Source: Datnioides undecimradiatus
Lineage: Eukaryota; Chordata; Actinopteri; Lobotiformes; Datnioididae
DNA: 64,000 bases
Reading direction: 5' to 3'
NCBI GenBank assembly: GCA_008933995.1
Contig: WARS01000012.1
Location: forward strand, 930,001 to 994,000
Made by a program: the position numbers and the translations under genes. Shown here piece by piece: positions 18,847 through 51,616 of this stretch. How positions within the stretch are numbered: the stretch's first letter is position 1; the number at the start of each line of letters is the position of its first letter. Below the pieces are notes generated by a model. The model was given only the letters and a program-made list of their open reading frames with translations, made no database searches and was not told the origin of the DNA.

Positions 18847-51616
<32,770 letters not shown>

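Follow-up and report, generated by a model that had tools for sequence, protein, structure and literature searches.

The window analysed here, a stretch of 64,000 nt at C465:930,001-994,000 of an assembly of 581.30 Mb in 497 contigs, carries at 33,248-33,280 a feature that is an assembly error, not biology, and that is not fish DNA. These 33 bases are almost certainly a remnant of an stLFR linked-read adapter, probably derived from read-through reads that were used by the assembler or a gap filler at hard repeats. The artefact reading is supported by several independent lines of evidence; the adapter identity, the copy number, the link to low-complexity tracts and gaps, and the copied filler found elsewhere in the assembly were all observed directly. 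Judging from these bases, an stLFR library was probably made for the source project. The finding corrects the library type from Nextera to stLFR, and its biological interest is low; adapter remnants are a quality fault, and matter to users of this assembly.

Adapter sequence at the window site

An exact Tn5 mosaic end (ME), CTGTCTCTTATACACATCT, is present at 33,248-33,266 on the + strand with 0 mismatches, as the sequence-only reading had stated. It is the sole match in the window when up to 3 mismatches are allowed, compared with a mean of 0.01 matches at this tolerance in shuffled sequence, and the earlier statement that no second mosaic end occurs therefore holds for the entire window. We compared the window with TruSeq, P5/P7, small RNA, 454, PacBio, ONT, BGI and MGI adapters as well as with the Tn5 inside and outside ends. 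Besides the Tn5 ends, the sole standout of this panel was at 33,264, where 14 nt overlap with a BGI adapter, which pointed to stLFR; the overlapping sequence, TCTTAGGAAGACAA, belongs to a BGI-type adapter. The feature proved to be longer than noted earlier, with the ME followed by TAGGAAGACAAGCACTGACG... and adapter identity extending over 33 nt to 33,280, where it stops. In the literature, the joined string was matched by a single paper (PMC10989976), and its read-filtering passage gives the stLFR adapters as CTGTCTCTTATACACATCTTAGGAAGACAAGCACTGACGACATGA (forward) and TCTGCTGAGTCGAGAACGTCTCTGTGAGCCAAGGAGTTGCTCTGG (reverse). The window is identical to the forward adapter over the first 33 bases (33/33), with the ME corresponding to adapter nt 1-19 and the following 14 nt located at 33,267-33,280 (+ strand). 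Since the window equals the forward adapter over this length, the feature is 33 nt and stLFR, not Nextera. In comparison with the 45 bases published in that passage, the window copy is cut at base 33 and joined to fish DNA. A review (PMC7664229) describes stLFR as Tn5-based with barcoded beads, a chemistry that agrees with an ME followed by a capture sequence.

Just upstream of the adapter lies an AT-rich low-complexity tract (33,218-33,247, + strand), in which 28/30 bases are A/T and the trinucleotide low-complexity score is 1.78 versus a window 95th percentile of 0.93. The orientation is that of a read-through product, with a low-complexity insert end, the ME and then the rest of the stLFR adapter. 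At 33,280/33,281 the adapter is artificially joined to fish DNA; adapter identity stops and a single-copy right flank begins at this point. An stLFR read of a short fragment would run past the insert end and continue through the mosaic end of the transposon into the capture sequence, and adapter trimming may have been incomplete. If the AT-rich tract was impassable for the assembler, or for a gap filler if one was used, an adapter-bearing read could have extended the left flank; the extended flank would then have been joined to the right flank, and bases may be missing at 33,280/33,281. No tandem array was found at the adapter site. Five inverted-repeat pairs of 12-24 nt are present in 32,000-34,500; four extend across the site, the ME lies in none of them, and we regard all five as chance.

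Mosaic ends across the assembly

A search of the assembly identified 84 exact MEs (31 forward, 53 reverse) versus 0 for a reversed-pattern control. Together with the 33/33 nt stLFR identity, this bears out the earlier proposal that adapter sequence was left in the assembly. The scaffold that contains the window is 13.3 Mb long, with the adapter internal to it. All 84 ME sites were read, in 81 stretches. From the ME start, the exact stLFR run is 19 nt long in 12 sites, 20-27 nt in 17, 29-35 nt in 42, 46 nt in 1 and 73 nt in 12, the last being the sites at which the constant 73-nt part is error-free (12/84). Apart from one run of 46 nt, incomplete exact runs thus stop after 19-35 nt, and the length then jumps to 73. 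The match reaches at least 23 nt in 65/84 sites and at least 29 nt in 55/84. Five more sites (L009, L021, L038, L046 and L060) carry the adapter with small changes: among the 12 sites stopping at 19 nt, L009, L038 and L060 differ from the adapter by one or two base changes or slips, the other nine being without recognisable adapter past the ME, and among the 7 stopping at 20-21 nt, L021 and L046 carry adapter with a few bases missing. The remaining five of these 7 (L041, L043, L050, L051 and L056) have only 1-2 adapter bases past the ME, which is within reach of chance, and such sites were not counted as stLFR. The stLFR adapter is consequently recognisable at 70/84 ME sites and not clearly so at 14/84; the library type that we assign from sequence applies to the former, the 14 being left out of it.

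The first 20 bases of the partner (reverse) adapter were found three times exactly, versus 0 in the reversed control, and none of the three (0/3) is on the contig of the window. Two of these sites were read: one holds all 45 bases published for this adapter in the read-filtering passage, with an N gap immediately after them, and in the other a single base of the adapter is missing. Two exact MEs occur in tandem at L037 (C312:20964387-20964439), L068 (C465:6084213-6084265) and L075 (C478:8627681-8627728), with starts 34, 34 and 29 nt apart, respectively, as if two adapter pieces had become linked either during assembly or beforehand. At L064 and L019 a second ME is present in altered or cut form.

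The 30-mers preceding the ME are low-complexity in 69/84 sites, compared with 15/84 for 30-mers located 60-90 nt after the ME start, the cut-off being the 95th percentile of this 64-kb window, which served as sole control in place of the whole genome. The upstream stretch is at least 90% A+T in 46/84 sites, a composition reached at 0.15% of the positions sampled in the window. The final bases of the constant adapter part (CGCCATAGTCCATGCTA) were found at 16 places, followed by N at once in 5/16, by N within 1-16 nt in 5/16 and by other sequence in 6/16. The variable bead barcode presumably begins at this point, and because the barcode is variable the assembler would no longer have one path to follow. 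Among the 71 sites whose adapter match is shorter than 45 nt, 8 have an identical short repeat directly on both sides, and there a single tract seems to be split by the adapter; the window site is without a matching short repeat on both sides.

In 8/84 ME sites, exactly 32 adapter bases are followed by one common sequence. The first 28 bases of this filler occur at 9 places in the assembly, corresponding to these 8 sites (L212-L218 and L220) and to an adapter-free locus at C478:6181139-6181166 (L219), which is taken for the native locus of the filler. Identity to the C478 place extends over 864 and 865 nt in two copies; in the other six it covers 339-395 nt, and each of these copies ends in a single N. 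Four of the six N-ending copies share a 12-21 nt simple repeat across the filler. At L217, the N is followed by the same 32 bases that precede the adapter, so adapter and filler probably split one continuous tract; at L212, nothing of 8 nt or more is common to the two sides. An erroneous gap fill would produce this pattern, and the 8 copies are likely false duplications. Joining by overlap of the adapter with the right flank was considered on the single adapter-free copy of the filler: this C478 locus and the adapter have just 1 nt in common upstream of the filler, and overlap therefore fails to explain the copied-filler join. Another common filler, of 69 nt, is found ahead of an N gap at L040 and L059.

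For users, some of the 84 ME places of this assembly lie at gaps, whether hidden or open, and 8 precede an apparent false copy of another locus. Adapter-led false gap filling, seen here in one assembly, might be general in public stLFR short-read assemblies, a proposition that we take seriously while leaning slightly against it. If true, adapter remnants at microsatellites would act as shared bridges that paste unrelated loci into scaffolds (here 339-865 bp at 8 places), and the false duplications would be taken as real by annotation and by duplication studies. Other stLFR-based assemblies can be screened simply with the 33-nt and 73-nt adapter strings, which are more specific than the bare ME, which cannot separate Nextera from stLFR.

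Rival origins and comparison collections

The sequence-only reading had proposed that the window feature is an Illumina Nextera or Nextera mate-pair adapter remnant, which is compatible with the exact match to the 19-base ME. Nextera uses this mosaic end too; its adapter consists of the ME followed by CCGAGCCCACGAGAC or GACGCTGCCGACGA, and a Nextera mate-pair junction consists of two MEs head to head. However, the stLFR adapter accounts for the 14 bases past the ME, which refutes a Nextera identity for the window site. Neither Nextera tail follows the ME at any of the 84 assembly sites (0/84), the head-to-head ME-ME junction likewise occurs at 0/84, and the window holds a single ME. IMG/VR provides a yardstick for genuine Nextera remnants: among the matches listed, the bare ME is present in at least 120 stretches with 127 MEs, of which 111 continue with a Nextera tail, 11 retain fewer than 4 bases after the ME and 5 have other tails, all Nextera-like by eye, while none falls in the stLFR class. 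Among the same matches, 125/127 MEs are at most 100 nt away from where the fetched stretch ends. These remnants thus share the 19-base ME with the window site, but have a Nextera tail close to a stretch end (among the matches listed), whereas the window site has an stLFR tail inside a 13.3 Mb scaffold. We consider a Nextera origin of the window feature very unlikely, and it could still hold at the 14 unclear genome sites.

The exact mosaic end would also suit a real insertion in the fish, either the end of a Tn5-like element or an engineered transgene. Against this, the bases past the ME belong to a synthetic library adapter, the 84 MEs are scattered over the genome with several leading into N gaps, and the window holds a single end. 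Furthermore, the stLFR 33-mer is absent from two large collections of prokaryotes and viruses (0 exact matches in genome_contigs and 0 in viral_contigs). An insertion is therefore exceedingly improbable. A natural Tn5-type transposon was also rejected on the ground that two inverted ends are required, the window holding a single end even with 3 mismatches allowed. Uniform-base arithmetic predicts 4.7e-7 exact MEs per window and 0.004 per genome, and 1.6e-11 occurrences of a given 33-mer in the genome. With 84 genome MEs against 0 in the reversed control, a chance match is refuted by the counts and its probability is practically nil.

An stLFR-based pipeline is described in published fish assembly work. 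For cobia, a passage of PMC11240236 describes 100-bp stLFR reads processed with SOAPfilter, Supernova and GapCloser, and the SOAPfilter parameters given in that passage contain no adapter sequences. This combination of stLFR, Supernova and GapCloser is a type of pipeline that could leave such remnants, and it has been used for a fish; the cobia assemblies are reported there as 586.51 and 583.88 Mb, compared with 581.30 Mb here. The literature matches listed contain no report of stLFR adapter remnants in assemblies, and one may still exist. The common carp assembly is said to be adapter-bearing, which was not borne out among the literature matches listed.

The zmiz1 setting of the window site

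The earlier placement of the site in zmiz1 agrees with the exons found. The gene is on the minus strand, with ZMIZ1/2 and MIZ exons at 20.3-21.2 kb that encode a GBD-like ZMIZ domain together with the beginning of the MIZ zinc finger, and with Zmiz1_N positions 50-88 and 13-45 in exons at 42.5 and 46.1 kb, respectively. What is presumably the first coding exon, at 51.6 kb, aligns with Pfam Zmiz1_N positions 1-15 at an E of 0.14, below the cut-off. A stretch at 24.2 kb, which we take to be another zmiz1 exon, has no match in Pfam. Among the exons found, to which small ones may have to be added, the adapter site lies between those at 42.5 and 24.2 kb, and the exon order around it is intact. The left flank (33,050-33,247) and the right flank (33,281-33,480) are each single-copy in the assembly; as each matches only itself, these 200-base flanks are not copied from another locus in the assembly.

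With the zmiz1 exons in order and the flanks single-copy, the damage at the window site is probably local. The two flanks most likely belong together, and the doubt most likely concerns the adapter itself and some length of sequence at the join. The earlier warning that sequence on either side of the feature may not be contiguous is thus justified for the assembly, where 8/84 sites lead into sequence copied from another locus, but at this site the gene order and the single-copy flanks point to a fault of local extent. Adjoining the zmiz1 exons, a frame without Pfam match at 18,884-19,372 on the minus strand contains a long glutamine run.
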